A stretch of DNA of 64,000 nt. It comes from Ceratodon purpureus (lineage: Eukaryota > Streptophyta > Bryopsida > Pseudoditrichales > Ditrichaceae). The notes under the pieces were generated by a model. It was not told the origin of the DNA and did not search any database. It worked only from the letters and a program-made list of their open reading frames with translations. Below are positions 19,007 to 49,640 of the stretch, piece after piece. The first letter of the stretch is position 1. Each line of letters opens with the position of its first letter. Position numbers and translations under genes: made by a program. The DNA lies in the NCBI GenBank assembly GCA_014871385.1, contig CM026426.1, forward strand, positions 108,336,565-108,400,564. Direction: 5' to 3'.

Positions 19007-19678
19007 GTATAGATTACTGCACTGATTTTGGCTCGGGGGATTCACTCAATGAAAACTGTAGAAACTAGGAGAGAACAAATATACGGTATGTTTTATTAGA
19101 TTGGCCTAAAAATTATAAGAATGTTATTTGAAATATAGGCTTCTAATAAATGGTGCAAATTAATTGTAAGTAATATAGGGTCCATGTTAATGATTACTAT
19201 TTGATTTTTTTTTTTTTAATGTACCATGCTATATATTAATTTACAGGATCCGATTCTGTAATCAGTGGCTGGGATTGAGTCGAGGGTCCTAGGTTTAGGT
19301 TTTCTAGGGTATTTAATTAGGGTCTAGGGTATTGTCTTCACCGTTGGATGGGGGGGGATTTTTCCATCGACGGTTCAGATTCCGAAGTGACTAAGGCGGG
19401 AGTTCTCTTGGTGGGTTCTCTCGGATTCTTCCATACAGCGCGTGGGAGGCCAGGAGATGTCGCGTGGTCACGCTGGACTGTGTCAGATCCGCTTCTTCCG
19501 GGGGCGCGAAGCTTGAGTTTGGCCTAGGTCGGATTATGCTGTCGAGGCGTAGGTTTCAGTACCGTTTGTAAGTTTGCGGTGTCCACCGAGTCTGGATTGC
19601 ATTGTGGTTCATTTTTGGGTTCTCTTGTTTTGCAATTAGGGTTTGTCGTTCATCTGTTGCGGCTTGATCAGTTTGGAG
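19007..19678. other. 5' flank of the large transposase-like gene
   Basis: This holds the probable promoter and leader of the 19679 gene. GC content rises at about 19300. GGGTCTAGGGTATT and AGGTTTTCTAGGG text near 19290-19340 resembles plant AAACCCTA-type promoter motifs in reverse. A possible intron acceptor (TTTTGCAATTAG) lies near 19628-19639. No clear TATA box was identified. Confidence 0.3.
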
Positions 19679-27780: not shown

Positions 27781-29590
27781 TGGTTGTGTTTGAATGATTT
27801 TACTTCAATGGTTTTGTTTTCATCTTAATTTAAAGTTGATCAAGTTTCAATTGAAGATTATCAAACCAAATGTGTTTGCGTAAAACAAATTTAGTTTTAT
27901 TTGATGGAAATTATAAAAAATAAAATATCTAATTTTATTATCCAATTCTAATTAATTTAATTTAGAATAAAAACACACAATACTATTTTCAAAGATCGTT
28001 AGCATTTTTATTTTTTTTATATCAATCATTGCAACTATTTATATGCATTAAATTAAAAAGATAACCATTATTTTTTATTAATTTAAAAATTAAAACGCTT
28101 GCTACGTGTTTAAAAATAAAAAATAAAAAAATAAAAAATTAAAAATAAAAAAAAGAAGTAATCTAAAACAGTTAGATGGAAAATCAATTGATTAGGAAGA
28201 CAACTTTTTATTTATAAGCAATAATTTTATCATTCTATGTGAGATTATATAATAAATTTGACAACAAAAAATTATTTTGTAATGATACATTGAAACCAAA
28301 GTATTCCAAAGATTCAACTTTAGCTCAAAAGTCTATAGTAATTTATAGCTATGACCTTAGAAAAGATAAACTTTCAACATTCAAGTGTAATTTTTTTAAT
28401 TGCTCAACATCTCTACAAAATTTGGTGAATTTTTTTTTATTTTAAATAAACAATAATTATATTACAATGTAAGACATTAGGAATATCCAAAACAATTTTA
28501 CAAGATTATATATAAAAAAATGCAATACATTTTCAACAAAAATTTGAAATTGTTTTTATTTTTTATTAGTCAAATCATTGTTTATGACATTCAATAGAGG
28601 TGGAGTTGATTACATTTCATTTAAATGAATAATATCTAAATTTTTATTGTAATGTTATTTCCAACAAAGCTAGAATGTAGTCTTCAATGAAAAATTTTGT
28701 AACATCGAACTTTGTCCAATAAAACATGCTCTTCATATCATATGAAATCTATATATTATATTTTTAAAGAAAAAATTAGACCTCCTTTATAAACATATTT
28801 TAGCCGTCAATGAAAGCAAGTTGTTCACCATTCTATGCAACTAATCTTTATCATTAATAATAATAATTTAATAACAATGTTTTAACAAAATGTTATTATC
28901 ACCTAAAGGACCAAGTGTTTGTTCTACAAACAATTGAGATTCTACACAAGTTCCTACAATATCAATTTTCAATGTGATTTTTTTAAAACATTTGTGGACA
29001 TAAGAAATTACAAGAGCTTTTAGTGCATATAATTTGTTGATCCACTATAACTCCAAAAAAAAGAAGTTATGCTCCTTTAAGTCATTTTTCCTCAGCAACG
29101 GATGAACTCCAATTGTTTTGCGACATTCCTTTAGTACCTTTGAGATTTTGTATACAAGTCACTAATATGATTCCTTTTTAGGCTTCCAAAAAAATTATTT
29201 CAATAATGAAAATATCTCCCTTTAAAAATCTTCAAAAGTTTGCTACATTATTTTATTTTATTTTAAAATTTATATTTTTGTATACTAACATCGTAGGAAC
29301 TTGGCTAAAATTTCAGTTGTTTGTTGAATGGATACTTGGCTCTTTGTAGGTTTTTGAGGATAGAGCCTCACGGTTCCACCGTTCTTGTTTCAGGTGTGAT
29401 GTCCGCGCATTGTCCAACGGTGTAAGTTCTTTTTAATGCGGAGTGGATTACAAGCTGTAGACAGAGTTAGCGGGTTTATAATCACATCTCAATACGTCAA
29501 CATATGCAAGTCAAATGATGGTATTGCTTGCGAAGGTGAGGTGCGACAACATCCGGGGAGTCCAGACACCGTGAACTGTTATTCTACACA
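27781..29590. other. Very AT-rich non-coding stretch
   Basis: Contains long A/T runs, such as an AAAATAAAAAATAAAA tract at 28108-28155. No coding frame of note is present. GC recovers after about 29340. Confidence 0.35.
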
Positions 29591-29597
29591 TGAGCTT

Positions 29598-29775
29598 TGC
29601 ACTACTAGCAAACCTGTCGTTCCTCACTTACTATATCAAGCAATTTCGAAGTTGGCGAGTCACTGGAGTCACAAAAGACAAGAAAAAGTGCCCTTTTCCA
29701 CCTTCTCCGTCAGTGAAGGGCGACACTTTTTGAGTGAGGAACGACAGGTCTGCTTCTAGTGTTGCTAGCAATGGC
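29598..29775. repeat. Inverted repeat / foldback structure
   Basis: Perfect 17-bp arms ACCTGTCGTTCCTCACT (29612-29628) and its complement (29733-29749) enclose about 104 bp. Imperfect pairing extends outward through CTAGCA-type sequence. A nested pair (AAAAAGTGCCCTT against AAGGGCGACACTTTTT, about 29683-29729) continues the stem inward. The structure could be a MITE or a small-RNA precursor. A short ORF crosses it but shows no domain. Confidence 0.5.
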
Positions 29776-31110
29776 TCCCTTAGAATCCGCCTAACAGCGA
29801 CAAGGAGGAAAACAAGGTAGTTGTGGGCTGTCTCCTACGACGTGGTTTACATACATGCGTCCAAACATGGAAAGTTTACACAGGGTACCAGCAACTCACG
29901 TAGGCGATGACGATTCGTCTTCCTCAAGAAATAGCGAAACTGGATAGAGGAGTAATGACACGCCAGCAGACACAAGTAGAGGGTGCACAAACATTTAACT
30001 CGATGTCCAGTCTTCCATGAACAGGCTTCTGCCCTGAGCTAACTCCAGGAGCTGAGTCAAAGAAGCGAGGAATCTTAACTAGCAGCTGTGGGCAAAGGAC
30101 GCGTGTGAGCACCTTGCTGTCTACAATAAATCCTTCTATGGACTGGAAAATACGAGACGCAATACTTGAGAAACACGCAATGGGCAACTTACAGACCGCC
30201 GCTCTCTAAATCCTCTGCAATTTCCTATATACTCTTCGTTACAACTGGTTACAATACCCACGACGAAACAATCGGCGAGAGTTTATATCGATCTGACTTC
30301 AACCGTATCCCAACAACGTCAAATTTGATGCAATGTTCAGCGTACCCTTTGAATACTCTAACGAATACAAAGGAGACTAGTGACATTGCGGCATGCAAGT
30401 CGGGGGCCAATCTTGGCACACGACTGGTCTGATCGGCAATTTGGAAGCGCTAGATTTGCCCGTAAATGCTCGTAGCCTAGGTAATTCCTAAATATATTGC
30501 GGAATTTGAAATCGTTATGCATTTAGCTCGGAAAGTGCCTTCTCCAAGTGGCATTTTTGATTTTGAGGATGACTAAGATTGGCCAAAAAATTAGTGGGAG
30601 TAGTGGGCCGATCCCCCATTGCTCCAAGGCTTGTCAGCGATTTTAGTATGATGTTGACTACACCGCCATAGATGGTGCAATCTGTTCAATACACCGGCGA
30701 GGAGGATCTATGGATGTCTGAGTGGCTGGAGGATGCGCCGCAGCTGGAGTTAGCAGGACATCAACGTGGGGAGGCGTATTGGAATGAGCGCTCCAACATG
30801 GCCAACGTTCAACGCTGTGTCAGCACATACATCCTTTCTCCTCGTAATTTCAGGAAGGCGCATGTTTAAATGTAGATCCATGTTGAAGAAGACAATGTCT
30901 CGGCCTTGGAGGTGGCGATAGGGTTTCTCCGCAGTGTATAGAGGCGACCCTACTGATCAACCACTGTCCCAAGGTGCGTGATTTCCACCTAGGCAGGCTG
31001 CAGAACGAGCTTCCGAGGATGTCTTAACGATCGACAAGTATGTATAACCTACAGAGTTCTCTGAGGATCGATTTCTAGTCTCATGAGTTATATTGCATGC
31101 TCCAATGATA
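29776..31110. other. Non-coding stretch
   Basis: Short open frames on both strands were inspected and none shows a domain or splice pattern that supports a gene. It precedes the left inverted block of the Mutator-like element. Confidence 0.3.
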
Positions 31111-31129: not shown

Positions 31130-32500
31130 CCAGTTTCTCGAACTAGGAACCCTATACCCCGTTGACAGAAGCAAGGTTATCATAGTAAACGGACGGGGCA
31201 TAAAATTGTCGTCTTGTCACGTAACGGACGTGACAGACGATTTTTTACCTAACTATTGGACGCGCTTTTCGAACGAGCTCCCGCGCGCGAGTAAAATTAC
31301 TATCCTCAAAGTTTACTACTGTTTACCATGGGGTGGCGCCCGTTGTCGCGTTTGCTCGCGCCCGTGAGCACGCACGCACGCAAAAAATAAAAATAATAAT
31401 AATAATAATAATTTTTTATTTTATTTTTTATTTTTTTCGCACGCGCTGGAGAGCTTGCGCGAGACTATCACAGAGAAATTGTTCATTTCATTTTAGTGAT
31501 AGTTCCTCCTTTAGGCATGTGCATGTAGGCATGCACATAAGAAAAAATCAAGCACCAAAACGAAATGAACAACTTCTCGGTGGAGGTTGGGTGCGTGCGT
31601 GTTGGTGTGCATAGAAAAAACTAGCACAAAAAGGAAATGAAACCGAACTTCCAAAAATCATGTAGATATGTTCTTATATGATTTGAATCTTGATTTTTGT
31701 ACTATTATAGTTATTCTTGTTAAATATAGTTATAAATTTCGTTCATGATTGCATTCATTAATTAAATATGTAAATAACTTATATTTCATGTTATTCTTGA
31801 ATTGATTTACCATGTTTCATTCAATTGGCACATACAATAAGTTTACATAACAAATACAAGAAAGAAAATTCATCATAGAATGGGAATGATAAAATAATTT
31901 CATGATAGACTAAGAATGGAAGAAAAAGAAAACGAGAAGATAGAATGGAATAGTAATGAACTTAAAAAGAAGACGATGATAGAATAAAAGACAATACAAA
32001 AAATAAATTAAAATAAAAGATGGAATGGGTGACTAATGGAAGAATAAACAAATAATTAAATACATGATAGACTAAGAATGGAAGAAAAGGAAAACAAGAA
32101 GATAGAATGGAATAATAATGAAGTTAAAAGGGATGAGATGATAGAATAGAAGACAATTGGAAATTTAAATACATAAAAATTAAAGATGGAATGTGAGACA
32201 AATGGAAGGCTAATAAAATAAATAAATACATCATCCACTGGAAATAGAAGAAAAGGAAAAGGAGAAGATAGAATGGAAGAAGAATAGAAAAATCAACAAA
32301 TAAAGGGATAGAATGGGAGCAATATGAAAAAAAGTCATGGATAAAAAGCCATCAAGTGTGATGAACGACATATTCAACAATGAATTGACGTTTAAATAAA
32401 TTTTGATTTAATCAACGCAAAGACAGCGACGCTATCTTGTGAGCAGTGAGCGGTGAGCAGTGAGCGGTGAGCACTAAATTTTCAATTTTTTAGGTAAAAA
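31130..32500. repeat. Left inverted block, probable left end of a large Mutator-like element
   Basis: The block contains, from the outside in: GC-rich text with GCGCCCG/GCACGC clusters (31335-31390) and an A/T simple repeat (31382-31436); ACTAAAATGAAATGAACAA in inverse orientation near 31475-31496; a purine-rich tandem repeat; and a GTGAGCGGTGAGC array (32432-32474). The same modules occur at 48.4-49.6 kb in the opposite orientation. The best-matched part is 32432-32490 against 48444-48502, about 58 bp with a single mismatch. Long terminal inverted repeats are typical of Mutator-like elements, and a Mutator-type transposase lies just inside. Exact ends and the expected 9-bp target duplication could not be fixed. 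Confidence 0.55.
31890..32300. repeat. Purine-rich tandem repeat, ~165-bp unit
   Basis: About two and a half units carry CATGATAGACTAAGAATGGA, GAAGATAGAATGGAATA and GATGATAGAATA. It lies inside the left inverted block. Minus-strand ORFs across it are pyrimidine-rich artefacts. Confidence 0.6.
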
Positions 32501-32754
32501 TTTGAATTTTTTTTTGAATTTTTGAATTTTTTTGAAAGCAATCAACCAATGATGAGCAGTTTAGGACATTTCGTTGGAATACATGAATGCAAATAAAGTA
32601 GACCCTATAACCGTGGAATCCATCAAATGTGAATGGTTGGAGGGAATATCTAACTGTATAAGTCACATCAGAATGTATATCCAATTTTTATTTTAAAATT
32701 TTTTATCGCATTTTTGTGGTCGCGGATTCTTGAGTAGAATATTTCCAAGGTATG

Positions 32755-32796
32755 AGGGAATATTCACCTCTCGGATCCGAGAGGTGAATATTCCCT
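32755..32796. repeat. Perfect 42-bp palindrome with core CTCGGATCCGAG
   Basis: Bases 32755-32775 are the exact reverse complement of 32776-32796. The central 12-mer CTCGGATCCGAG (32770-32781) recurs in the long intron of the ParB/methyltransferase-like gene at 40.4-44.4 kb. The palindrome lies between the left inverted block and the transposase gene. Confidence 0.85.
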
Positions 32797-33000
32797 AACC
32801 ATGTAGGAATTTTTTTCTTGGTCTTCATTTTACCGCGAACACATTCGATAGGTGGACAATATATAAATAAATAGTGACCTTTATTTATGTTTTGCGGATT
32901 TCAAATCCATCACAAATCCAAAACAAATCAATTCCGCTATTTATATAATGTATTCTTGTGCTGTATTGGTCACTCAATTTCACAGTCTAACCATAAGAAA

Positions 33001-36000
33001 CTACTGAAGCGGTTCAACAACTTTGGCCATCTCCAGAACATGCATAACTTCGTTGAAGCTGAAGCTAGGGGCGTGCATAAAAGTATCAACCTTGTAATCC
33101 ATCTCACATAGATAATGGAAGATATAATAAACATGTTTACAATACTTCTACTGGCCTCTTTTGCCAAGGGTTTCAGAAGTCATTTTCATGAAGTCGGGGC
33201 AAGTACATCCAGGGAAGTCCGTGATGGTGATACAATATATCGTTTCACTTGGACTCTTCAAGGAGATGACGCAGCCAAATCCTGGATATGGAATCGATGT
33301 GACATATGTGATCCAGTAGTTGTTCATGAGACCCGCGCTGCTCCACTTGTTGCGGTGGTCGGAGGTAGGAGCGTCAGAACTTCTCCTGATGGCATATCCG
33401 TTTCGAGTCGTCGGGTGTGTATCCGGATCAACAGGAACTGGGAAATGACTCCTTGGAAGCGGCATATTAGCAGAAACCTGGAACTGACGACGAGGTGATA
33501 GTACTCCACGTTGTTGGAGTTGGAAGCCAGCCTCTTCAAGAGCCAAAATCTCTTTGATGGTCAAGTTCGTGCCCATTTTCACAGGCCAAGTCTGCGGGAT
33601 AGATGGCCAATCGATCACAAACGACTTCTTTGTGCCCTTCACACATCTATCAATGTCATCCGCGCAAAACCAAAAGTCAGTAGAAATATGGCGATCGGTT
33701 CTGAACTCCTTCTTCAGCCCTACATAGGTAGGAGCACGCGTACCATGTGTACCTCGGCGCACTCGAGTATCGCACTTCTCATTTGTATGAGCCTGCATTG
33801 CTTGGCATTTTCGGTTAGACTTACCGGACAGTCTGGCAATGTGCCACTTAGACGGGTCGCAATCTGTCTCCTGCACTGAACTAGTGTGTTCAACACCCGA
33901 GTCAGGTTGAGAAAGGGCCTCCTCAATGCGTGCTCTAGTGGATCTCGTGCCATCACGAGGAATGGAGTAATTCATTGTATCATACCAATGCGAGTCATGA
34001 CTCGAACCGGGCGGCAAATCTAACTTTCGTTTCGTAGATCCAAAGATCTCTGCATCTTCCAAGCCTCCTTTCTTCGTTAGTAAATCCTCGGCTCCCGGGT
34101 AGGAATTAACTGCCTCAGCAATCAACTTGGGGTCACCAGAGCGTTGAGCGTGGCGTAAATGAAGTTCTGCTCTGTCCGGACCTTTACCACCCTTTCCTCC
34201 CTTCAGCCAAGACCGATAACTTGTGATCTGCATGAATGCTCGGATCATATCATCCACTGTTGCCTCGTACAAACATGTCATTGTATTACCTGATTGTTGA
34301 AGCCATTTGTTGTGGACGGTTTCCGCAAGGTTGCAGGAAGGCATGTTGGCTCTCTCGTCAAGGGTAAGATCCTGGAAAAAAAAAAATAATAAAATCATGT
34401 CATTTTTAGGATTATGAATTAAAAGCAAGGTATACTAATACTGGATGGAAGGTTTAGAGACAATTAAACTTACAAGCTGCATCGAGCCTCCCATTGTCTG
34501 TACCGATAGTGCCAGAAAACCATCCAATCATTTAGATGACGCCTTCTTTCTTCAGTTGTAGCACCTGACGAAAGCCACCACCCGCGGATGACGTTGTACT
34601 GTGCTTCTGCTTCCTCTTGGGTCTTTGCGTCCTTCCATACTTTGCACAAAGCTTTGTGTTGGTCTTGAAAGCTTGGCAAGATGTTCCGAGAAGTTGCCCT
34701 CTGAAGGCACTTTGTCCAGTGGAAAAGACAAGTGCGCTCCCGTTCTTCCATAGGATCATTGGGATCTCCATTCCCATACACCTTACAAACAGCGTGCCAG
34801 TTGGCTCCAGCATTGTCAGCCATGAATCCTTTGAAATTTGTATTTTCAAGGCCGTTCTTGCGCATAACTTCATTGAGCTGGAGCCAAAAGAACTCCTGAG
34901 CAGTAGCATCTTTAGATTGCATGACACATAGGGCAATTGTCATAACTTTACAGTACTTACTGTCATATACGTGGCAAGCCATGGTGGTCCTGTCAGCAAC
35001 ACGCCAAACATGGTCGAACATAATCCAGCAATCTTGAAGATCACCTCGAGGCTGCATGGGCTTTATGAGATCCACTCCACTCCCTGGACGATCAGTTGAC
35101 ATCTTGAACAGAAATACCTTGCCTTTGTTCTGTCCAGGGAATTGATTTCGATGAATGAAGTCAAAGTTGGAGTAGTCCTTGAGCTCCAGGATGCTATCTG
35201 TGACTCCTCTTCTTTGACGAAAAAATCTCTTCGATCCAGAAACAAAATTTCGTATATTTGGTGAGGTGAGAGTCTCAAATTGGTCCATCACAGCATCCAT
35301 AGATGCTCCCCAAAGATGACTGCCTCCTGTAGTAGGACGGATCAGAGCATCGGCAAGGTACTGCTTGCTGGCCGCTAAAATGATAGCAGAATTCTTGGCT
35401 TTCGGTGTCTTCTGAACCTCCTTAGCAATGCAGTCAAACATTACGTCTATTGAATCCTGACATCTACCTTGAGATACAGGATGTCTGTGACGTCCTAAGT
35501 GAATGGCCGCACGGGTAACATGTTTATCTGTGGACGACACGTGGTAGATCCTAGCGTCGCACAGTGCTAGACAGATCGGAGGTGTCTGACATACTTTACA
35601 TGCTAACGTAGATTTCTCCGTGGGAGAGCCTCCCACAGAAAAGGGTACTAAGGCTACACCTGACCATTCCGTGTTGTTTACCATTCCATTATTCCTGGAG
35701 ATATAATCGCAACTAGGCTTGGGACATTCTAAATGTCCAGTACAGGATGACTTACGATATGTGAGGCCATACTCGTTCTTGATGTTTGTGGTCATTGTCT
35801 TGCACCAGGTGTGGCCATCATACTGCTTGCTCATCCCGTCCATGCCACCTCCAAATGAAGTTGGAACTCCTTCGGCTAAAGGGGGCAGCTCAAAAATCTT
35901 GTCTCCGTCATAAACTGGCGGTAAGTACTTCAATTGTTCGTGGTCAATTGTGTCAAAATCTATCTGCGACAGTTCTGATCGGGAGCCCCTTCTTGACGCT

Positions 36001-36620
36001 GTCATCCTGATGGCAAACATGATGCTTCTATTTTTTGGGGAAGTAGGGTGAATAGGTGGACGCCCTGTAGACAATGACGCGGACATACTAGAATGACTAC
36101 TCTGTCGAGATGGACGTCCTGACTCTTCGGATCCACGACTCAGGAATGGATTTGACCTAGTGTCTCCTAGCTTGATCTCACTGTGAGTGTCATCATCCGA
36201 GTCACTCAACAAGTGTACTGAGTTTTCACTGGGTTCAATTTTGACATATGCTAGACCAGGAACTTGAACTGTTGACGTGGAAGGAGGAGGGGTCAAGAGA
36301 ACTGTAGACTCAGACATCTGTGCATCTGATAACCCGTATACCTTGAAAGTCCCAGATCTAAGAGTCCAGACGTAACCATCGGGTGTACTATCCTTCACTT
36401 GAAATGCACACTCAAGAATCTCACCATTATCATCAAAGATCTCTTCTTCCACGTAAATAGTCCCGGCTCTAAATCCAAACCTGAGGCTAAGCAATCGCTC
36501 CTCCACAACTACCATATTGTCTGGACCTACAGACATCACAAATGGAACACCTCCATCATGAGACCGTAGAGAAGCCATTCTAAGTGTACTATAGAAGATG
36601 GAAGAAGTACAATCATGCAT
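33001..36620 (-). pseudogene. Mutator-like (MULE) transposase with SWIM zinc finger, broken at a conserved Trp
   Basis: Exon 1 (36620-34470) has a Ser-rich N-terminal half and then a MULE-type core: ACHVYDSKYCKVMTIALC (first catalytic Asp), GFMADNAGANW (second) and RTCLFHWTKCLQ. Exon 2 (about 34374-33001, after TTTCCAG) ends in a SWIM finger, CTCPDF followed by CKHVYYIF. The frame is cut by TAG at 33148-33150, just before KYCKHVYY, where relatives have Trp; it would otherwise end at 33001-33003. The donor at 34473 (CTT|GTAAGT) and the acceptor do not join in frame, so there is probably also a small indel or another splice choice. MULE transposases bind long terminal inverted repeats and cut and paste the element. 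The ATG at 36620 is in frame with a second (MASLRSHDGG) 14 codons later. Confidence 0.8.
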
Positions 36621-37327
36621 TGGAGGAGAGCTTGTGCAAGTGGAGTGTAAGAAGATGTGCTTGGTGTGTACCAGGTTGTAGAGATTATATAGTTGTTAGT
36701 GGTTAGTGTGGTGGGACAATTTAGATACTCTAAATTGAAATAGAGTGTACTGGCAAATTCAACATGACCTGTATAGCTTAATTTAAGTTAGAATGTATCT
36801 GACAAACTGAAATGCTTAGGCGGCTAAGACCGCCAACCACATCATGTTTAGCTAATACTATTATATCATTCAGCTATGAATTTGAACCGTCACAGATGTG
36901 CACCAATACATTTATAACAATTAGCCGTCAATGTGAGCGTGACCACGGCAACTTTAATTTAAATGGTTATTTCGTTTGGAGGCAGAGTTCATAACTTACT
37001 TTATATTAAGGAGAGATCTAGTACCAGACCAGTCAGAGGTGTTCACAAATTTTGACATAAGATCATGACACCATGTCATACTCTTTTCATAGATTTGGTG
37101 GCCATTCTGAAATGGTCTGCACCTAACAATTAAAATATATACTACTATTATATATAACAAAGATACTGACATTAACATTAGCAATCACAGCGCCATCACG
37201 CATGTATTATAGGTATGAAAGGTTATGAGACTAAGACTCCACTATAAAACTGGTACTAAGCACTTATCGATTTCAAAGCATACGTCTTAGTTGGAATTAT
37301 GTTTACGGGAGAGCGTTACTGAGACCT
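36621..37327. promoter_or_regulatory. Shared divergent promoter region of the MULE and ParB/methyltransferase-like genes
   Basis: Both start codons face away from this 707-bp gap. A TATA-like CTATATAA on the minus strand (36685-36692) lies 65 bp upstream of the transposase ATG. TATAAAA on the plus strand (37243-37249) lies 79 bp upstream of the other ATG. The rest is AT-rich, without other recognisable sites. The arrangement would allow joint control of both genes. Confidence 0.5.
37243..37249 (+). promoter_or_regulatory. TATA box of the ParB/methyltransferase-like gene
   Basis: CTATAAAAC lies 79 bp upstream of the predicted ATG at 37328, a suitable distance for a plant promoter with a leader of about 50 bases. 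Confidence 0.45.
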
Positions 37328-40300
37328 ATGAGGGAAGAGGAGGAGCCAAGCCCAAGAGTGCCGAGGGCTCCTAGATCATGTACGACTAGAGGTAGAGGAA
37401 GAAGGCGAGGTTCAGGTTTTAGAAAAGCGAAGCAGGTGGCGGCCCAGAAGAGACGGAAGGAGAAAGTTGCTCTTGATCGGATTGCAGAAGTGGATTATAG
37501 TTCGGATGATCCCAAGCACCTCAAAATCAAAGCATTGGCCACCATATGCCAGGTATACCAAATCATGTTGAGTGCTTTATGTAAATCACTAATTTAACCT
37601 AATTTGAAGTATTGCATGATTTTGTTTAATGGACTTAGGTAGAGTTTTGTTTCTTTAGTCTAATGGTCACGAACATTGAGAGCCAGGGCATAGTGCTTTT
37701 ACAAACTACTCACTATGCATTCACAGAATCTAAGAGAATGTTCATTACTGAATAGACGGACTTGGTGATATTATCATACTCTCAAGTACTCAGGGTTGAC
37801 TTTTCAGTCATACCGTGAAGGTTACATTGAACTCATTGAGGGATGAGAGATTTCAGATGAAGATTAAGTCTTTTCGGTCATACCGTTGACTCTGACGATG
37901 TGAGCACGGTCGTCCTGCAGGTCACATCACTAGGCAGCACCGGAAACGACCTACATTGCGAGGGAGGTGAACCAGCGAGGGCATGCTTCTCGGATTTAGT
38001 TGCGGCAGTGAGTAATCCGTCGCAGGTAGAGTTTTCTGACCCTAAATCCATCCCAAGTTCTCAGTTCGATCAAGGCAATGAACATGTTTCTATTCACACA
38101 TTTCAATGATATTCTTGTTAATCTTACCGGTAGAAACCCTAGGATAGCAGTTTTAATGGCCTAGGATCTTGGGTTCTGTTGCAGGTGATTGCATGCGGTG
38201 GAATTCATGGCAAGGGTCTTAGGGATTTTTACGAGCTGAGTGAAGAGAGCTCACTACTGCCAGTTGGGTTTTCATTGGAGTATGAGAAGGTCGACGGAAT
38301 CAAACAGCTGGTAAGTGCGGTTTTCTTATCGAATTGTTCTGGAATGGATTTGAGAGATTTCAGATCTTCTGAATAGAGATGTTATCAACTGCAGTCTCGG
38401 AACGTTAAGGTATCAACTTCTGTTTCCTTTCTTGCGCTAAATTGAGAGCACATTTTTCTAGCACGGAAAAGAAAGAGTGAAAAATGTACAGTTGCTGTGT
38501 TGATTACCACGGAGAGCTCAGTCATCTGACAGCCTGGAATATCTCTCTCGCCAACACCTCGGCAATTTTAACTCTATGGAGAGTTACGTATTTCAGTTTA
38601 CTGATTTTGGCGTGTTTCAGGCAGGGCTTCCGTTTTTCTTTTCGATAGACAACCAGAGGGTTTGTCGATACCTAAATTTGACGATTCTCAATTGTAACCA
38701 TTAGCAGGTTTCAGTTACACAGAGAAATGGTAGTATGTTTCTGCGGATAAATTCCTTTCATGAGGTTTGGTTTGAAGATAAGCTTGTCGGTTCTACTCAT
38801 CTGGTTGCCGCTTTTTCCACGACAATTCGATGGTTTCTTAAGAAATCTTTTTGCCGATGATTGAATCCTCCTAGAGGCTGGAGAGTATTAAAGTGCTGAT
38901 CACTGAATTTCTTCGATTTTTTTTACGTTTGAACAGATGAACCTAGAAACTTTCTCCATGATAGTTATCTTGGCTGGTGCATTTTCTCTCGAGACTTGCT
39001 AGATGCCATTGGCAATGAGCTGGTGAATCGAAAGCCGATGGATCTAGTCTACTGTTTTAAATCTGATCTTTGAGAGAACTATTCACACATTTCAGCGATA
39101 TTCTTGTCAGATGTAGCTGAATTCACGTATGACCAAAATTTGTTGATTCCAAAGACTCTAATTCTAATTTTCTATTAAGAATACTAACTGCATGGTTTCT
39201 TCCGCAGGTGAATGATACAGGCACATCACTGTATGAGGCAGCGGTAAGGTTTGAAATCGCCGAACAGGAGTTGACATTAGTGCCGCGAAGTTTGTCACCA
39301 AAGTCCTCTCGAATTCCGATCATGTCAGAGGTGAGTGTGATCCTGCTTATTCGAAATCTGCAGTTCAATTTCTGGTGCTCAAGTTTCTCGCCAAGCTGAA
39401 CTATGAATGTTGTGAATAAATTGGGTGGCCATATTCCTTACTTGTGGCAGGTTGTCGACAAATCTCATTACACTCAGAGTCTTGGTATTTCACTTAGTGA
39501 TTAGTTCTTAATTGTGGGGTGGTTATTGCATGCAGATGAGCCGTGAAGCACAAATTCAGATCGTCCAGAGTCCGTCAAGCACCATGGACCATGACGACCA
39601 GGGGATGGCTGCAGTCAAGGACCAGCTCCGCAGATTGGTGATGGGAGATTCACATGTCTGTCTAGAAAGCGCTCTACACATGCCAGGTATTGAGATTGAC
39701 GTACCTCTCTGCAGGATGATCCCAATGAAGGACGTCAGAGAGCCTTTGAAGACTGATATTCAGAAGCTGAAGGCCGAGTTCTCACGTGGATACAAGAGGG
39801 CGTCATCATGCTTCTACCTCTCTCTTAGGAGTTTTAGGATGGAGGAATCTAGTGTTTCTGAAGCTAACAGAGCATCGTGGTCTGAGCTATGGCGGAAGGA
39901 GGATGAAGAATTTGAGAGAAGATTGTCAGAAAATCCAGCCTTCCAGAAGTATTCTAACAAGTACTTCTACGTGTGGGATGGAAACCATCGCCACATTGGT
40001 TATCAACACCATCCGGAAGCATGATTCGTCGTTTCATGTTGCTGTTCGATCGGTTATTATCAATGTCACCCCTGCAAACTGCAATATGCTTTTGCATGCC
40101 ATGACCGATTGGAATAAGTACGTGATACATTTCATCATTTGCATGAGATGATTTGCTTTTTATTTATTTGATTTGGGCTCTAATTAAGTTCTGTGGCTTA
40201 TGTATATGACCTGCTATAGCACGTTTCAGGTAGCTAGTCCCAGTATGCTGGTGCTTTTATATTGCAGTCTACTTGTACATACTCAGCTCCAATATGAACC

Positions 40301-43300
40301 TGGAGTCACGTAGTTTAATTTTCCTTATGTCGTTAGAGCTTTAGTCGAGCTCTATGGCTCATTTGTGGGAACTGCTCTGCTGGCTACAAGCAGCTGCCTC
40401 GACCTGAGGCTCTTTTTATTTTACGAATGTCTGTATAAAAGTGATTAGGCCCAGCACCCCTGGTCCCCCTCTCGGATCCGAGGGGTGCCTTGGCTGGTGC
40501 TTTTGTGTCGCAATTTTACTTAACAGTGAGCTCCAGCATGAAGCTGGAGTCACGCCATTATATTAAGTTCTGTGATTTTAGCTCTGACATTTCATCAATT
40601 TGTTCAGTACTATGTCTAAGAACTTCCTTCTTGTCTTTGTATTTGTTTGATCTTAACTCACCAATTTCTGTGGGAAATTTTCAATTTTTTGTGATTCAGA
40701 AAGAATCAAGTAGACCACGTTGCCCAACATTGGACACATGAGGTGAAGCGTGTCCAACAACTAGGTTTGCTGGATTTTGACCAACTCAAGGGTCTTGTGA
40801 AAGAGGAGGATTTACAAGCCAGTATTTTTGAGAGGACACGGATGAAGAACAGAAAATGGTATCACCTTACGAATGATGCGTTTATCAACTTCTTATACGA
40901 GGTAAGAATTTACTACAATACAAATACTGTCAATTCAAAAATATTTCGAGTTCTAAACAATTCACAAATGTTTTTTGTTATTGAAGAGGGAGATTTCAGC
41001 GGCCCAGGAGGAGGCTATTCGGGGCTATAAAGACACACTCATAACAGGCACTGGAGAGGATAGGCCAGGTAGTCCGTCTGAACTGAAGGCAATCGCTGCT
41101 AAAGCAGTAGAAGCAAAGAAGAAATCGCTTTCCTCCTATTTGGATCGCTTTATCGCCATAGCCAACCTAGCCAATGGAGATGGTTTTTTAAAAGAAGTAC
41201 GTCATTTTCTTAGTCCCAAGTATCTTTATTTCAACGTTTGTTTGATTTGTTTAAGGTCTTCTTTGCTGCTCCCTCTCTTGACTAAAAGGAGGACGGTTGA
41301 AATTCGTTTTTTTTGGTTGAAAATTCTTTTTTTTTCAACTGCCGAGGACACCACAGTTCCATGTCTCGGATCCGAGGTGTGCCCCGGTGGTCCCATCTCA
41401 CATTGCTTTTTTGCTTATGTCTCAGTAGCAACTGTAAGAGATCGTATTTTCTTTTTACACAGTTCGTGTGTTTGAGGTGATGATCAGCTTGAGTGGGCTT
41501 TTATTGAGTGCATGCTGCCTGCTTGGGGCAGGCAGCGAGGGTGTTATTTAAATTTAAATTCATTTTATTTGAACCCATTCTGCGTTCTCGGATCTGAGAG
41601 GTGAATCTTTTGTAGGTTCCTTTTAATAAAAAAAATAAAATTCCTTTTTTTTTGAATGCCGAGGACACCCCTGGTCCATCCCTCGGATCCGAGGGGTGCC
41701 TGGGCAGAGGCTACACAGCAAGCTTTTTCAGCTTATGTCGCTCCAGCAATTGCTGGAGCTTGGGCTTTATTTCTTAAATCAATTCGGCACTTCAGTGTGG
41801 AGCCAAGCTCCTTGAGCTATGTCTGTGAGCATGGTGCATGCTCGTTTAAACAGTGCTTGCGAATAGTGTGAACATTGTGAGCGATGTGAATAGTGCTTGA
41901 GGTAGTGAGTAGCGTTCTCGGATCCGAGAGGTGAATCTCTCGGAGATTCCTCCTTTTGCTTGAGAATTCTTTTTTTTTAAATTCCGCGGACACCCCTGGT
42001 CCACCTCTCGGATCCGAGGGGTGCCCCGGTGGTCCCATGTCACATTGGTTTTTTTGAATCTGTCTCGTTAGCATCTGCCTAACGTTGGTTTAATACGAGT
42101 TATGGACTCTCTTTTGGCCGACAATTATTCTATGCTTAGTTGAAAGAAATTTCGTTTGAACAGTCGTTATTCCTGTCTGAGCAAAAGTCTGCTATGTGGT
42201 CCAATGTCTACGTTATTTACAAGTGGTATACATTCAGCTTCTTCTGTGAAAGTAAAATTTTCATCAAGATTCTCTCTTTTTCTCTTTATAGTGATCTGTG
42301 TCAACGTTCATCTGAATTCTCTACTGTACTGTCAGCCTGCAGCGTGGTGCATCTTCTCTATCTTTGGTCCATCGCAATGTAAACTATTTTCATGACGTCG
42401 GACTCCAGAGTTCCAACTTTGCAGTAACGGTTTACATTGAGTACTCATCAAAGAATAATATAGATGTATATTAGTGCTAGATAACCTTGAAGCCACTAGC
42501 TAGTTTGATACAGATTCAAAGATTAGTACAATTCCACTGTACCATGGCTCGAGCGACTGGCAGTAGTACAAAAACTGTCTGCTTACTGTTTCAAGATTTG
42601 CATGAAATCGTGCAAGACTGAGCAGTTCAGAGAGGCTCCAACTAGATTAGATCAATCGACGACAGCTAGCTAGCTACAAGCTTGAGCGACGCTGCTGCAA
42701 TCCTTGTTGTGTAACAAATGGAAACTGATTAGCTTGTCGAATCCACTCTGCCCCATAATATATAAATTATATAAATTTTTGCTGTTTCACAGCCTGAAAT
42801 GTATAACTTTATGTGAGTTGCAGTGCTAAGATAGGATCTGAAGATGAACTAAGTTTTACAATACGACTTAGTCATTTGGTCCACTGATACGCGGGTAGCT
42901 TGGTACTGGGAAAAAAATAAGCATCCTAGTTGAGGAGACTTTGGAGGAGTTCAGGATTTGGCGAGGGCCGATTTTGTTTGTCTGAAGGTCCCAGTCGTCC
43001 CGAGCCTTTTTGTTTCGGTTTTTTACTGTGGTTGTGCACCAGCAAATGCTGGAGCTTGTTTTTTTTTTTAGGTTGTTTCAGACTTCAAACTTGGTGTAAG
43101 CTACCGATGCGGCACCGGAGCCGCGGAGCCCATCTGCTGGGAGCTTGTTATGTGGTAAGGTCTCATGTGTAGGGGGCAGTTTTTCTTTACGATGGCATCC
43201 AAGTGGAATATTCACTCCTCGGATCCGAGAGCAGGATCTTGGAAAGATTCTTTTTTAGAGTCCAATTCAGAATTTTCAAGTGCCGAGGTTACCCCCGTTC

Positions 43301-46300
43301 CACCTCTCGGATCGGAGGGGTGCCTCGGCAAAGCTAGTGTAGGATGGTTTTTTTGGTTCTGTGGCTTGTGCTATTGCTGGAGGTTGTGTTTGTATTATAA
43401 TCTGTTTGGTTTATTGAAATGCGTTTGGTGTCTTTGGCTCGTGATTAAGGTGCATGTGCATGCTGCCTGCTCGAGGTAGGCAGTGAGAGTTCTGTTGTTT
43501 TGTATATAAGCACTCCTTACGGGACAGCCAGTGCTGGAGCTTCACGGCAATTTTTTTTGTTTTTGCGATTTGTCTTCCAGAATCTCCTACTCAGCTTCGA
43601 GCTGATGCATCATGCTTCCACGAGTGGTATGATGCAGGTGTCTTGATCGAGCTGTGGATTTCGACAATTCTTGTTTTTTGATCTGTGGATAAACACTTTA
43701 GATGTAAACGCTCCTCTGATGATACTCATGTTAGACTCGGGTGATACTTGTGCAAAGGTCAGCCAAAGTCATTCCGTTGTAATCCTGTCTGCTTGTTGTG
43801 AGGAGCCAGTGGCTTGAAGTAGTAAATATATTGTGAGCTAGCGTTGAGGAATTGAAAGGAGAGTGTTACTTGATGTGAAGTTGGCAGACTTGTGTGAATC
43901 CTTGCGATTGGTTTCACGTTAACATAGTGTTTCATTATGACTAGCAACTTCGCAATATGATTTGATCGACAAACCTGGTGAAAATCAACCTGGTGCTCTT
44001 TCGAGCAGCAGAGTCAGAATTCAATGAACTAAGTTAGCGTAGAATGTCGATGAAGCAGATGCTGGAACTCAAATTGTAACTTTTTTCTATGCTGAATTCT
44101 CTGAAGTTCCTGCAAGCCCAAGTTGGTATGGTTGTATCAATTGTTTTTTGAGCTGGCCGTAGTAGCCTGGTGCTGCATGCTGCCTCCGTCAGAGCTTGGT
44201 GGCATCCAGGAGGAATATTCAATCCTCGGATCCGAGAGCAGGATCTTGGGGAGATTCTCTTTTAGATTCCAATTCAGAATTTCCAAGTGCCGAGGTCACC
44301 CCCGGTCCACCTCTCGGATCCGAGGGGTGCCTCAGCTGAGCCTTTTTGTTTCTTTTTTTTTCCGTTGTTGTGCTTTAACAAATGCTGGAGCTCGTTTTTT
44401 CTTGAATGCTGTATCAGACTTCGAGCTCGGTGTGAGCTATATAGTAGCTTGGTGCTGCATGTTGCCTGCTCAATGCAAGCAGCGGATGTGTAATTTATTT
44501 AAGGCCATGTGTTTGGCCGAGCTTCACGTGAAGCAAGAGTTCCTACGTATGCTCTAAGCTTTTGGTTATTGTTAACTTCTTCAGTGTTATTTAGCATGAG
44601 AGATATGAATATCAATGAAAGTGTTTAGTTATAGGTATTGTTAAAGTATCCCTTCATGTTTAATTTAATGCATGTATCTATTTGTAAATGAATTTCTTTG
44701 AATAAATTGCGTAATTAACCAATCTAAATGAATCTGATATAAGTGTATTTGTAATCTTATTTGCAGATCATTCGCCACTTTGACATTTTTCAAAAAAATG
44801 CAGAAATGACCCTTGAGAAATTGCAGCTCATTGCCTCCGCTAGGGTGAGTGCCAAGCATAAGGAGAGGTGGTTGAGGTGGTGGAACATGAGCAAGGAGAG
44901 TTGGCAGGAGTACAACTTTCCTCCACAACTGGCTTCTGATTTAGCTCTCCGGCCTTGGGTGGATCAAGCTGCTTTCCGGGCTGGGGTAAGTATTCATTTC
45001 TTAAGCTCTTGCAATTCTTTATAATTTTGTTGCCTTTCACAGTTTATCATATGCCTTCTTCATAAATAAAGTCATGACTTGGTTTTGAGTTCTGCAATTG
45101 ATTGGTTTTTCAGTTGGAGGAGGAGGCAGTCATTCGTTATGACAAGATTGTAGAGGAGGACATGATAGTTTTGAGGACAGAGGATTTGCCTAATCCTGTA
45201 GATGATATTGGCTCATGGATTGAGTCTCATTCCTTGACCTTGTGGGGGAAAGCATTTAAGAGTTTTTTTCCTAAGGCTGGCACTTACACAAAGAAAGAGC
45301 CTTTTCTCAACCAGGCTGGTGCTGAGAATGCTATGAAGCGGGCTATCTTGAGGTATTTCTGGAGGGAGTTGGTTGTTAAGGGTGCCATTGACAAGAAGGA
45401 TATTCCTCATCGTTTTAAGAAGTGGGTGGATGTGTCTAGCAGTGAATGCATTTTTACAGAGTATCAGAGGAGGCATTTTGGAGCTCCTCATCTCCTTCAG
45501 TGTCCTTGGTACCTTGAGCTCAAGGAGAATGATAGTTGCCCCGGGGAGGAGAGAGGTCTTGAAGCAAGTTGTGAGAATTTAATAAAGCAGCTTGTGGATG
45601 AAGGCATGGTGGATTTGGAGGAGAATATCTCCCAGGTTGGTGATGATGCAGGCCTTTCTGAGAAACAGAAGAAGAAGGTGGCTGAGAGGAAGGCTAAGGA
45701 AGCGGCAAAGATGACGGAGAAGGAGGACAAGAAGAAAGAGAAGGAGCAGGAAGTCAAGCTGAAGAAGGAAGTGGCAGCAAGGAACAAAGAGTTGGCCAAG
45801 TTAGTTTTGAAGGAAGGGCCGGAGAAGTTGATGTCTCATGTTGGCATTTCTCCTTCAGGCAGTAGCATGCAGGCTGCCATAGTTCCTGTAGCTCCTCAGG
45901 TGCCTCTTTTTTCTACCCCCATGCCTTCTCAGACTATCTACACCATTCCATGCTCGCAGTTGGATGAGGTAGACACTAGTGTTGAGATCATCAATGATTG
46001 CCCTATGGGCATTTTGGATTTGTTTACTTCTTTATCGGAGGAGGATGAGCCTGAGATTTGGAGCAAGATCAAGCATTGGATCAAGGGGAATCTCGGTACC
46101 AAGGCTAGGAATTTCGGAGGTGAAGAGGCTGAGGCTGCTGTGGACCTCATCATATTTGATGTTCCAGAGGATTTGCGAGTTCCAGGTTTAGGGCAGGATG
46201 GTGAGATTCCTTACTGGAACAAGCACCCCAAGATTTCAGCAGGGAAGAAAATGGAGTCTCCATGGATTAAGGCCCATTTTAAGTTTGCTATGCAGTTTCT

Positions 46301-47431
46301 ACAGGATGATGGAGCTTTGATTGTATTTTACCCTGATTCAAAGTTCATTTCGAATGAGCTTATTTCCTGGGCAGAGTGGGCTAACTTCCAGGAGGAGTGC
46401 AAGTGGTTTGCAATCAATGGCCTTCCCTTGACTATTCCAGATCGTTATCCACGCCAGCACAAGACTTTTATGGTGAAGTGCTTCATCAAAATGGAGAATG
46501 TGGAGGAGGATGTCCCAAGGTCTAAGTTCCAGTTTCATGATAGGGCTGAGCTTGGTGCCCAAGGCATCAAGCTCTCCTCTGATGGACATTGCACTAATTT
46601 GATTACTGCAGATTCTCTCACAATCAATTCAGAGACTGGTGAGCCATTTAGAGGAGCACGGGAGAAGACTTCTAACCTCTTGCAAGCTCTAATTGATTTG
46701 TGCACGGTTGAGAATGACATTGTCATGGATCTCACAGCTTCTACAGGTATTAATTTGTTTTTTTTTTTTTTTTGTTTAAAAGTATTTTGTATTTCATTTT
46801 ATAATTTTTACTTATGTCTTGGAGCTCTAATTTCTGTGCAGGTGCTTCTATTCGAGCATCGAAGAGTCTCCGGCGTCATGTCATAGGCTTTGAGTGTGAC
46901 ACCACCTTGTACAATCAGGTGTTGTTTCCTCTTCTTCCAAGCACGGAGGAGGTTGAGTCTACTCCAATTCCTGTGCCTTCACCGAAGAAGAAACGTCTGG
47001 TTGAGTCAGATGATGAGCCTGAGAGGAAGACTGCCCCCAAGCGTTCATGTAAGTAAGTCTCTACATTCGTTTGACATTTGTTTATTTTTTTAAAAAGTTT
47101 TGATCAACCTTTATTAAACTGTGAAATTGTCATGTGCAGTCGGAAGAAAGCGTTGAAGAATGACATTGGTGGCTTTATTATCTCGCGCCATCTTAGCAAG
47201 ATAAGGAGTCCAGTTAGACCTTTAGAGCTTCCACATTATGCAGAGATGCAGGCTCAAGCTTATTTAGCTGCTCCTTCTCCATCTATTTCATCTGTCAGAG
47301 ATAGCATTTGTCGTGATGCTGAGATTTATTTTGACATAGCTGTAGAAGTTGCCAGAGTGGAATTATCTAGTGATAGCGATTCTTATCATGGTTGGATTGG
47401 TACTTGTAGCGATGACGAGATGTCTACTTGA
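37328..47431 (+). CDS. Eleven-exon gene: ParB-like domain joined to an N4/N6-type DNA methyltransferase-like domain
   Basis: Exons, all with GT-AG borders: 37328-37552, 37921-38025, 38185-38310, 39208-39330, 39536-40117, 40700-40901, 40987-41196, 44767-44985, 45114-46746, 46842-47052 and 47140-47431; phases match throughout except inside exon 5. The predicted protein is about 1,310 residues. Order: a basic, NLS-like N-terminus (RGRGRRRGSGFRKAK); short symmetric exons; a ParB-like domain (exon 5, FYVWDGNHRHIG); helical exons 6-8; a Lys/Glu coiled coil (about 45650-45800); a methyltransferase-like domain (exons 9-10); and an acidic, Ser-rich tail. Inside exon 5 the frame shifts by +1 after GNHRHI (about 39995-40020), which is a mutation, a sequence error or a missed splice. 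It is divergent from the MULE gene. The role is unknown: DNA modification or a recruited, inactive DNA-binding protein are both possible. Confidence 0.7.
39536..40117 (+). other. Exon 5: ParB/sulfiredoxin-fold-like domain
   Basis: The exon reads ...IEIDVPLCRMIPMKDVREPL, a typical ParB entry strand and loop, then a helical insert, then KYFYVWDGNHR at about 39959-39991. GNHR takes the place of the GxxR phosphate-binding motif of ParB-type domains. After a +1 frame change the continuing text VAVRSVIINVTP and LLHAMTDWNK closes the domain and leads to a phase-2 donor (AATAA|GTACGT). Bacterial ParB domains bind CTP and DNA or act as nucleases; which activity, if any, persists here is unknown. Confidence 0.6.
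40440..44490. repeat. Cluster of palindromic repeats with CTCGGATCCGAG cores
   Basis: Cores lie at 40471, 41365, 41587 (one mismatch), 41682, 41917, 42007, 43218, 43306 (one mismatch), 44225 and 44313. Two types alternate: type I is flanked by GAATATTCAC- or GAGAGGTGAATC-like arms; type II is flanked by GCCGAGGACACCCCTGGTCC and GGGGTGCC. Four I-II pairs have spacings of 88-95 bp. Other small palindromes accompany them (CTCCAGCAATTGCTGGAG near 41741, TGCCTGCTTGGGGCAGGCA near 41517). Most are in the 3.57-kb intron 41197-44766, and 40471 is in the preceding intron. ORFs crossing them are by-products. Confidence 0.8.
45114..47052 (+). other. Exons 9-10: beta-class N4/N6 DNA methyltransferase-like domain
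   Basis: The order of motifs matches beta-class amino-methyltransferases. The motif IV position is DLIIFDVPEDL (46143-46175; usual form DPPY or SPPW). It is followed by WIKAHFKFAMQFLQDDGALI (motif V and VI region), then TSNLLQALIDLC (motif X), VMDLTASTGAS (motif I, usual DPFxGxG, split by the intron 46747-46841) and HVIGFECD (motif II). Both signature motifs deviate (DVPE for DPPY, LTASTG for FAGSG), so the fold is likely but catalysis is doubtful. The intron inside motif I joins in frame (ACAG|GTGCT). Confidence 0.6.
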
Positions 47432-47980
47432 TCATTGCATATTTACTCTATATTGTTATGTTTTCCCTACTTATATATCATATGATAGCTTTGGCTTTGG
47501 ATTTTATATTTTGCCTTAACCTCACTTTACTCTACTTCTGTGTGAATTTCTCTACCAGTCATATATTTTAAATTGACTTTATACATGATTAAATTATAAA
47601 GATGGTACTAATATTTTTAGAAGTTGAACTTTCCTTGGTTACCGCTTGAAGGCATCACAATAAAATGTGGTTTTCTTAAAACCTTTCTCATGTAATTTTC
47701 CCTTCCCTATTATGCAAATACCCATAGTAATTACTTGGGGTACTTGGGCACCACTAGTAATTACTTGGGGTCTCCTACGAACACAAATCCCAAGTCGGTT
47801 TTAGGAGTAATTAACTATCAGTTAATTAATTCTTCACCTTTAAATCAGTCATCCAACACTTGGATGAATAATTATTCATCCCCAAAAACTAGAAGCCACG
47901 TTCATCTGCAATAGCCGTTGTGTATATCCGTTCTTCACCTAATTTTGTTTTACTTTTCTTTTATCTGTCTTTTTTCTCTC
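47432..47980. other. 3' flank of the ParB/methyltransferase-like gene
   Basis: AT-rich, with a short direct duplicate (AGTAATTACTTGGGGT at about 47727 and 47757). It probably contains the 3' UTR and polyadenylation region; no single signal stands out. Confidence 0.3.
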
Positions 47981-48245
47981 GTATATGTATTCATTCATTT
48001 TTTTTGTTTATCTTTTTTTGTTAATTCCTTTTTATGTTAAATTATCTTTTATTTTATTTATTTATTCGTTGTTTTCTTCTTTCGTTGTTTTATTTATTTT
48101 TCTTTCTTTTCTTCCTATTTTCCTTCATTTTTTAATTCATTTTTCTCTATATTCCTTTTCATTATTTATTTTTAATCTTTTTCTTTCTTTCATTTATTTA
48201 TTTTTTTTTCTTTTTTTTTCTTTTTTTTTTTAATTTTTTTTCCTC
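47981..48245. repeat. T-rich low-complexity tract
   Basis: The plus strand is nearly pure pyrimidine (TTTTTTCTTTT, TTCATTTATTTATTT). It mirrors the purine-rich repeat of the left inverted block in composition. ORFs here encode only Phe/Leu/Ser text and are not genes. Confidence 0.6.
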
Positions 48246-48299
48246 TTGGTCTTCATGGCGTGGAATTGATAGGATATATGAAAAAATAATCACAATTTA

Positions 48300-48925
48300 T
48301 ACGGGTATGAATTGGGTGTAAATTTCTACATATATCAATTTAGAAGCCATTCTTTTGGGAATGTACCCTAAAACACCTTCCACGGTCATAGGTCCCATAT
48401 ATGCCATGTCATACAAAATCATTTCAAAATATCAAATAAATAGTCAAAAAATTGAAAATTTAGTGCTCACCGCTCACTGCTCACCGCTCACCGCTCACAA
48501 GATAGCATTCGTGAACGCGAAGATAGAGGAAATGTACACTAAATGCTCTAGTTTAAACAAAATAAAACTAACTCCAAAATCTTCTACTGATCTAATTATC
48601 TATGCCTTTTACTACTATTTTTATTCCAATATCATATTACAAAAATGTTCTCATCACTCATCGATCTCCATCACATCGCGTACTGAGCAATTGAGCTCCT
48701 TGGTCTAGCAACAATTATTTGTGCATAAAATTGCAATGAACAACTTCTTGGTGGAAGTCCGGTGCGTGCTATTAAACAAGTGCGGACGAGCGCGTATACT
48801 CCGGAGCGAGCATACGAGTGAGTGCAAAGAAAGAAGTAGCACCGAAATGAAATGAACAACTTGTAGGAAGTTTGGCGCGAGCTATCGGGCGACCGCGGAC
48901 GAGCGCGAGCATACAGCCAAATGTG

Positions 48926-48960
<35 letters not shown>

Positions 48961-49640
48961 TTGCATGGTTTCTTTGTGCGCGTTTGCTGATATGCTTGCG
49001 CCCGTCTGCGCGTGCTCGAGTGCTTGCGCTCAATGGAGGAAGTAGCACCAAAATGAAATGAACAACAAACTTGGTGAAAGTCCGACGCGAGCTATCAAGG
49101 GAGCGCGGACGGGCACGAGCATCCGGGCGAGTGCAAAAAAATAAAAATAAAAATAAAATACAAAAAACAAAAAATAAAATTCTTTTTTAAAAAACTTTTT
49201 CCTGGTTTCTTTGTGTGCGTTTGCTGATATGCGAGCGCCCGTCTACGCGGGCCCGAGTGCTCGCGCTCAATGGAGGAAGTAGCACTAAAATGAAATGAAC
49301 AACAACTTGGTGGAAGTCCGGCGCGCGCTATCGGGCGAGTGTGGACGGGCGCGAGCATACGGGCGCAAGCATACGGGCGAGTGCAAAAAAAAGAAAAAAA
49401 AAAAAGAAAAAAAAAAAAAAAAAATTGTTTTTTTTTTGCACTCGCCTGTTTGCCCGCGCTTGAGTGGACACTCGCGAGCGCTCGTGCGCGCGAAAGTCAG
49501 CGCTAGGTGAATTCGTTTTACCCTTACCATGAGTCAACTGGTCAACGCCCTTATCGGACGGACATTTGGGTGTGCCTTGTCACCATGACGGACTAACAGA
49601 CTAATAGATGGTCGCTCTGTTATAACAACCATGGAGAGAT
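48300..49640. repeat. Right inverted block, probable right end of the Mutator-like element
   Basis: The reverse complement of 48444-48502 matches 32432-32490 with one mismatch (GCTATCTTGTGAGC, the GAGCGGTGAGC array and ACTAAATTTTCAATTTTTT). Further inward, GGACCTATGACCGTGGAA (reverse strand, ~48380-48397) matches GACCCTATAACCGTGGAA at ~32600-32617. Outward, ACTAAAATGAAATGAACAA and GGGCGCGAGCATACGGGCG text corresponds to the left block in inverse order. The module order is not perfectly colinear, because the purine tract lies on the other side of the GTGAGC array, so rearrangement or decay has occurred. Confidence 0.55.
48727..49440. repeat. Tandem repeat, ~225-bp GC-rich unit with A tracts
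   Basis: Three full units and one partial unit. Each contains AAATGAAATGAACAACAACT, GGTGGAAGTCCGGCGCG, GGACGGGCGCGAGCATACGG, then a poly-A tract (a run of about 33 A at 48926-48958), TTTCTTTGTGTGCGTTTGC and GAGTGCTTGCGCTCAATGGA. It forms the outer part of the right inverted block. ORFs across it are repeat artefacts. Confidence 0.75.

Follow-up and report, generated by a model that had tools for sequence, protein, structure and literature searches.

We report that a stretch of the genome of the moss Ceratodon purpureus (C6:108,336,565-108,400,564, 64,000 nucleotides; hereafter the window) carries one member of a multicopy two-gene DNA transposon, in which a transposase gene is paired with a divergently transcribed second gene. 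The family is large and, judged from sequence, the combination of its well-preserved, methyltransferase-shaped second gene with repeats of a palindrome, CTCGGATCCGAG, looks like a system for recognizing its own DNA. In the literature searched, with Repbase and most subscription literature outside its scope, we found no report of a transposase, a methyltransferase-like gene and a palindrome combined. The assembly comprises 362.5 Mb in 151 contigs; C6 (110.5 Mb) we infer to be a sex chromosome, in a species with a 360-Mb genome and U and V chromosomes of more than 100 Mb each (PMC8000587).

The borders of the element were set by comparison with a copy on chromosome C2, whose homology with the window breaks off at 32424 and 48513. 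Because it stops there, we read an inverted match of 81 nt (32431-32511 versus 48426-48506, 89% complementary) as the terminal inverted repeat. The element and its ends are as follows:

32424-48513, unstranded: whole element, 16,090 bp; homology with the C2 copy ends at both borders
32424-32511, plus: left terminal inverted repeat (core 32431-32511), in which short repeats of GTGAGC type were recognized by eye
48426-48513, minus: right terminal inverted repeat, core 48426-48506
32414-32423, unstranded: left target duplication, 10 bp, AACGCAAAGA; 9 of 10 bases equal to 48514-48523
48514-48523, unstranded: right target duplication, AACGCGAAGA; 9 of 10 bases equal to 32414-32423

A perfect 10-bp target duplication directly flanks the element in 10 of the 11 other copies whose ends were fetched (the C2 copy and ten further copies, read by eye from the printed flanks); in the remaining copy (C11) the right end was not found within the stretch fetched. 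The ends that these duplications flank have the form 5'-CAGCGACGCTATCTTG...CAAGATAGCATTCCTG-3', with different last bases in one copy and in the window. Both the 81-nt inverted repeat and the 10-bp duplication fit Mutator-like elements (MULEs), which make target duplications of 8-11 bp and have terminal inverted repeats of 14-500 bp, absent in some MULEs (PMC6446971). A reading made from the window's sequence only had proposed a Mutator-like element of ~18.5 kb, at 31130-49640, carrying a ParB/methyltransferase-like gene. Such an element is supported by the co-occurrence of the two genes across the family and by the duplications around the two-gene unit, but its extent is corrected by the stops in C2 homology; the target duplication that the sequence-only reading had suggested looking for lies just outside the corrected ends.

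The two genes are divergent and share a gap of ~0.7 kb, between 36620 and 37328, as had been described from the sequence. Their exons are:

34474-36620, minus: transposase exon 1, with a Cys/His cluster (weakly WRKY-like), a candidate second catalytic Asp (GFMADN) and CxxH
33001-34371, minus: transposase exon 2, with NLAETVHN and a SWIM-type CTC..CKH; intron borders read from the sequence
37328-37552, plus: second-gene exon 1; all 29 other copies examined have it upstream of their transposase
39536-40117, plus: ParB-like exon, reading WDGNHRHxAW in relatives; in the window copy its frame is disrupted
40700-40901, plus: second-gene exon, GT-AG borders, 89.6% identity to the C2 copy
40987-41196, plus: second-gene exon, 5' border approximate, 84.8% to the C2 copy
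44767-44985, plus: second-gene exon, GT-AG borders, 94% to the C2 copy
45114-46746, plus: main amino-methyltransferase-like exon, with motif IV DVPE, motif X and motif I DLTASTG
46842-47052, plus: second-gene exon continuing motif I (GASIRASKSLRRHVIGFE)
47140-47431, plus: last exon of the second gene, with its stop

The genome holds at least 62 transposase copies at 88-100% identity, the window included (62 scored of 2,702 candidates), and 59 of these lie on contigs other than C6. A scored methyltransferase exon lies on the divergent strand within 20 kb of 41 of the 62, compared with a mean of 0.2 under random placement. This pairing is a floor, because only 74 of 4,193 methyltransferase candidates were scored. 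Moreover, each of the 29 other copies available with flanks has second-gene exon 1 on the strand opposite to the transposase and upstream of it (46-96% identity). For the corrected element we saw neither of the outcomes that the sequence-only reading had named against itself, namely inverted blocks dispersed widely without either gene, or relatives of the two genes that never co-occur.

Purifying selection has retained the second gene. Its methyltransferase exon has a median dN/dS (ratio of nonsynonymous to synonymous substitution rates) of 0.19 (range 0.08-0.30; 78 pairs from 13 copies), and, the window aside, is free of stops and frame gaps in 10 of 12 copies; the ParB-like exon is open in 7 of 7 other copies. 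For the transposase the median is 0.09 over 433 pairs (433 of 435 kept after dropping those with dS<=0.02); both values were obtained by the Nei-Gojobori method from pairs that are not independent. The sequence-only reading had called the second gene cargo; it is indeed carried by the element, but the word understates a gene retained in this way. The exons tested are 84-96% identical to those of the C2 copy. Of five intron stretches compared, two were unalignable and two aligned in palindrome-rich patches only; the 87-bp last intron was 92% identical. The closest transposase pairs are 99.6% identical, and some copies have therefore moved or been copied recently. The window copy itself is degenerate: it has an in-frame stop in the SWIM exon (33148-33150) and disrupted frames at the end of transposase exon 1 and in the ParB-like exon, and other copies are open at all these places.

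The second protein is predicted to consist of a ParB-like exon, a charged helical linker and an amino-methyltransferase fold of beta-class type (N6/N4), with exon joins taken from splice borders. The features of that fold were found, although matches to Pfam PF01555 stayed below the cut-off (17.5, 16.2 and 19.8 bits versus 26.7). The motif X/I region is recognizable, with DLTAGTG in three relatives. The pattern applied to motif IV found D[VI]PE in 20 of 26 relatives; the other six were counted as misses, P0036 having DVPE and P0038 DMPE outside the pattern and four being without the motif. A PPY-type motif IV, as in the catalytic (D/N/S)PP(Y/F/W), occurs in none of the 26. ParB-like is a label that we take from the motif DGNHR-x-x-A, which fits while nothing else does: a ParB profile gave no hit in the six proteins scanned (HMMER filters on), and PDB profile searches with A2 and A3 returned coiled-coil, low-complexity or chance-level matches only.

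The palindrome CTCGGATCCGAG occurs 11 times in the window with at most one mismatch, always within the element, compared with a shuffle expectation of 0.05. The sites are:

32755-32796, unstranded: 42-bp perfect palindrome centred on CTCGGATCCGAG, near the left end
40471-44324, unstranded: ten further sites, eight exact and two with one mismatch, all in second-gene introns, starting at 40471, 41365, 41587, 41682, 41917, 42007, 43218, 43306, 44225 and 44313

Each of the 12 left ends seen, that of the window among them, has one palindrome core 339-343 bp inward of the left inverted-repeat core (11 exact and one with a one-base variant). In the four elements seen at length CTCGGATCCGAG is the commonest 10- and 12-bp palindrome, with exact counts of 9 in the window, 8 in the C2 copy, 10 in L081 and 3 in L079. 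It was absent in exact form from the other 47.9 kb of the window, from 14.8 kb around the C2 copy and from 26.3 kb of other MULE loci, so that its rarity outside the family is a statement about 89 kb; nor was it found in any of 11 methyltransferase-exon stretches from other copies. Shuffles and these non-element controls led us to reject a chance palindrome. The units around the core change: in L081 the stretch separating the ParB-like exon from the methyltransferase exon holds the sites in a tandem array with 9.7 copies of a 126-bp unit, and L079, with a methyltransferase exon of 47% identity to that of the window, has other arms around an unchanged core. A fixed core with turnover of its surroundings is how a binding site under selection would look. 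As with the targets of VANC proteins in VANDAL elements, a short motif is arrayed in the element's non-coding DNA and rare in the 89 kb of controls.

We therefore consider the following model. The second protein, by itself or as part of a complex, would bind the CTCGGATCCGAG palindromes, would gather in this way on copies of its own family, and would keep those copies expressible or mobile. By analogy, it would be a sequence-specific anti-silencing or licensing factor with a role comparable to that of VANC in Arabidopsis VANDAL elements, a protein that to our knowledge is unrelated to methyltransferases; we give this interpretation an even chance. VANC binds short motifs that are tandemly repeated within its own genes' introns, and it causes DNA methylation to be lost (PMC5735166). 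Because motif IV is DVPE or DIPE, not DPPY, the moss protein would more likely act through binding than through DNA methylation, with S-adenosylmethionine perhaps as its ligand. If the model is true, a Mutator-type element has a second route to addressing its own DNA, from a bacterial-type methyltransferase fold instead of VANC. The palindrome offers a ready test of binding and anti-silencing in moss, and one may ask what an amino-methyltransferase fold that is conserved but lacks its catalytic motif does in a plant.

Several observations weigh against this model. No CTCGGATCCGAG was seen in L076 (2.5 kb around one ParB-like exon) or in L080, whose contig begins within the gene. The ParB assignment comes from one motif; Pfam, NCBIfam, PHROG and PDB profiles gave no match. 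Of the 74 scored methyltransferase copies, 33 have no scored transposase within 20 kb; these are perhaps partial elements, or their transposases lie beyond those listed. The dN/dS values indicate retention, not function, and gene conversion among copies could contribute to them. Either protein could be the palindrome binder, since a putative DNA-binding cluster is present in the transposase too. Finally, VANC target motifs turn over quickly, whereas the moss core is constant.

A more specific version of the model can be put forward tentatively. Bacteria and phages have fusions of a ParB domain to an N6/N4 methyltransferase with the same order, ParB-like and then beta-class amino-methyltransferase, although these carry a canonical DPPY; we know of none linked to a transposase. 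The moss protein might be a self-recognition module of this bacterial type, which loads on the constant, parS-like intron array and then covers, marks or tethers all family copies. This would make it a selfish epigenetic system, addressed by sequence and of an evolutionary origin independent of VANC.

The sequence-only reading had added, as speculation, that such a protein may influence the methylation state of its transposon. Methylation of the element by its own protein seems unlikely. Dam methylation times or protects some bacterial transposons, and the adenine of GATC or the cytosine N4 of GGATCC in the palindrome could likewise receive a mark that protects the element or times its transposition. 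The amino-methyltransferase fold, the recognizable motif X/I region with its three DLTAGTG relatives, the GGATCC core and the existence of retrotransposons with their own DNA methyltransferases (PMC5890265) would all fit; the motif IV counts, D[VI]PE in 20 of 26 and PPY-type in none, argue against it. We are similarly doubtful that the protein is a transposition accessory that aids synapsis, end pairing or integration, with the palindromes as internal enhancer sites. Maize MuDR has such a second gene, mudrB, apparently needed for integration (PMC6446971), and both the two-gene layout with its co-occurrence and a site that keeps a distance of 339-343 bp to the left core at all 12 left ends are what this would predict. 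Most sites, however, are intronic, in mid-element, and variable in number and spacing, unlike end-pairing sites.

A reading in which the transposase or a host factor binds the palindromes, or in which these work as RNA hairpins or self-repressor sites, with the second protein acting elsewhere, is very improbable. In its favour, the transposase is available as a second candidate binder through its Cys/His cluster, which gives weak WRKY-like matches. Against this, the core is exactly kept in L079 beside a second gene only 47% identical and with different arms; since the transposase of L079 was not seen, that conservation does not separate the two binders. Passive, Pack-MULE-like capture of a host gene fragment has a negligible probability: MULEs often carry pieces of host genes (PMC6446971), but exon 1 is present in 29 of 29 other copies, dN/dS is 0.19, the multi-exon gene is open in most copies tested, and the element does not show the Pack-MULE pattern of host fragments without a transposase.

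The transposase is supported as a divergent Mutator-like enzyme by its motifs, the target duplication and weak structure hits, rather than by a Pfam match, and to this extent its earlier naming as a MULE transposase stands. MULE transposases have a DDE triad with CxxH after the second D, a SWIM finger and a WRKY/GCM-type DNA-binding domain; NLAETVHN in exon 2 contains a candidate for the catalytic Glu. The window's open reading frame had no Pfam match, PF10551 included, at E<=1, and an open copy of 1206 amino acids had none at E<=10. A first hhalign run with the whole transposase (effective number of sequences 1) found no match, and the structure model was poor (predicted local distance difference test score 45.8), without a Foldseek match at E<=0.001. 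The genome has at least 93 listed matches to PF10551, the canonical MULE profile (150 of 384 candidates scored), many of them on C6; none of those listed belongs to the family of the window.

Among known systems, Arabidopsis VANDALs are likewise MULE-type elements with a transposase and a second protein, but they are non-TIR MULEs (lacking terminal inverted repeats) with vanA, vanB and vanC, and the VANC21 motif, YAGTATTAY, is non-palindromic (PMC5735166, PMC13317346). MuDR and HarbingerS elements with SET genes also join a Mutator-type DNA transposon to an epigenetic enzyme; theirs is a histone methyltransferase, in oomycetes, and the part of the account cited mentions no site array (PMC12730594). 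Fungal DNA transposons with a TET/JBP dioxygenase similarly carry a DNA-modification enzyme, one that oxidizes 5-methylcytosine, in other transposase lineages (PMC12730594). Retrotransposons with cytosine DNA methyltransferases or Dam-like adenine methylases, and marine-virus DNA transposons with a DNA methyltransferase, are comparable but mostly retroelements, with enzymes of those two types, and no cognate site array is mentioned in the part cited (PMC5890265). The N4CMT of bdelloid rotifers differs as a catalytic host protein, fused to a chromodomain, that helps silence transposons (PMC8885841).

The family includes a diverged subfamily. L081, a copy without a scored partner, holds a second gene that is 67% identical in DNA and 64% in protein in the methyltransferase exon; in elements of this type the transposase half keeps ~92% DNA identity to the window, and second-gene exon 1 has ~46-47% protein identity. 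A subfamily of transposases lacking the methyltransferase was accordingly rejected, as the ~46% exon 1 and the 64% methyltransferase exon are present. L023, L032, L033 and L036 have this combination of a ~92% transposase half and a strongly diverged second-gene half, homology breaking at window position 36805. This pattern suggests that the second-gene half was exchanged between elements, with faster divergence as the alternative.

A viral origin found no support: a search of viral contigs with one short peptide pattern, a weak test, gave no relative. One peptide pattern gave two hits in genome contigs, L079 and L080, filed under a cyanobacterial metagenome-assembled genome (MAG); both carry the second gene with introns, and we rejected them as bacterial relatives and read them as eukaryotic contamination. 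This Synechococcales genome, AVDCRST_MAG81, appears to contain plant, probably moss, DNA.

Outside the element lie the two parts of an older repeat, which the element has invaded:

31130-32413, unstranded: left part of the older repeat block, cut by the element's insertion
48524-49640, unstranded: right part, continuing the left block

The inverted blocks of the sequence-only reading hold in part, as the 81-nt match is the terminal inverted repeat. The outer modules (for example 31440-31523 and 49258-49341, 73%) lie beyond the element's ends and are repeated in both direct and inverted orientation, and long terminal inverted repeats ending at 31130 and 49640 were rejected on these grounds. The outer modules had no match elsewhere in the window or in L009-L038, a weak test in loci that are mostly intra-element. 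Elsewhere in the window, the lowest G+C steps of a 2-kb profile are at 14001-16000 and 28001-30000 (28.5% and 30.6%), and a 1,501-amino-acid open frame at 19643-24148 (plus) is, from its size, perhaps a retroelement polyprotein.
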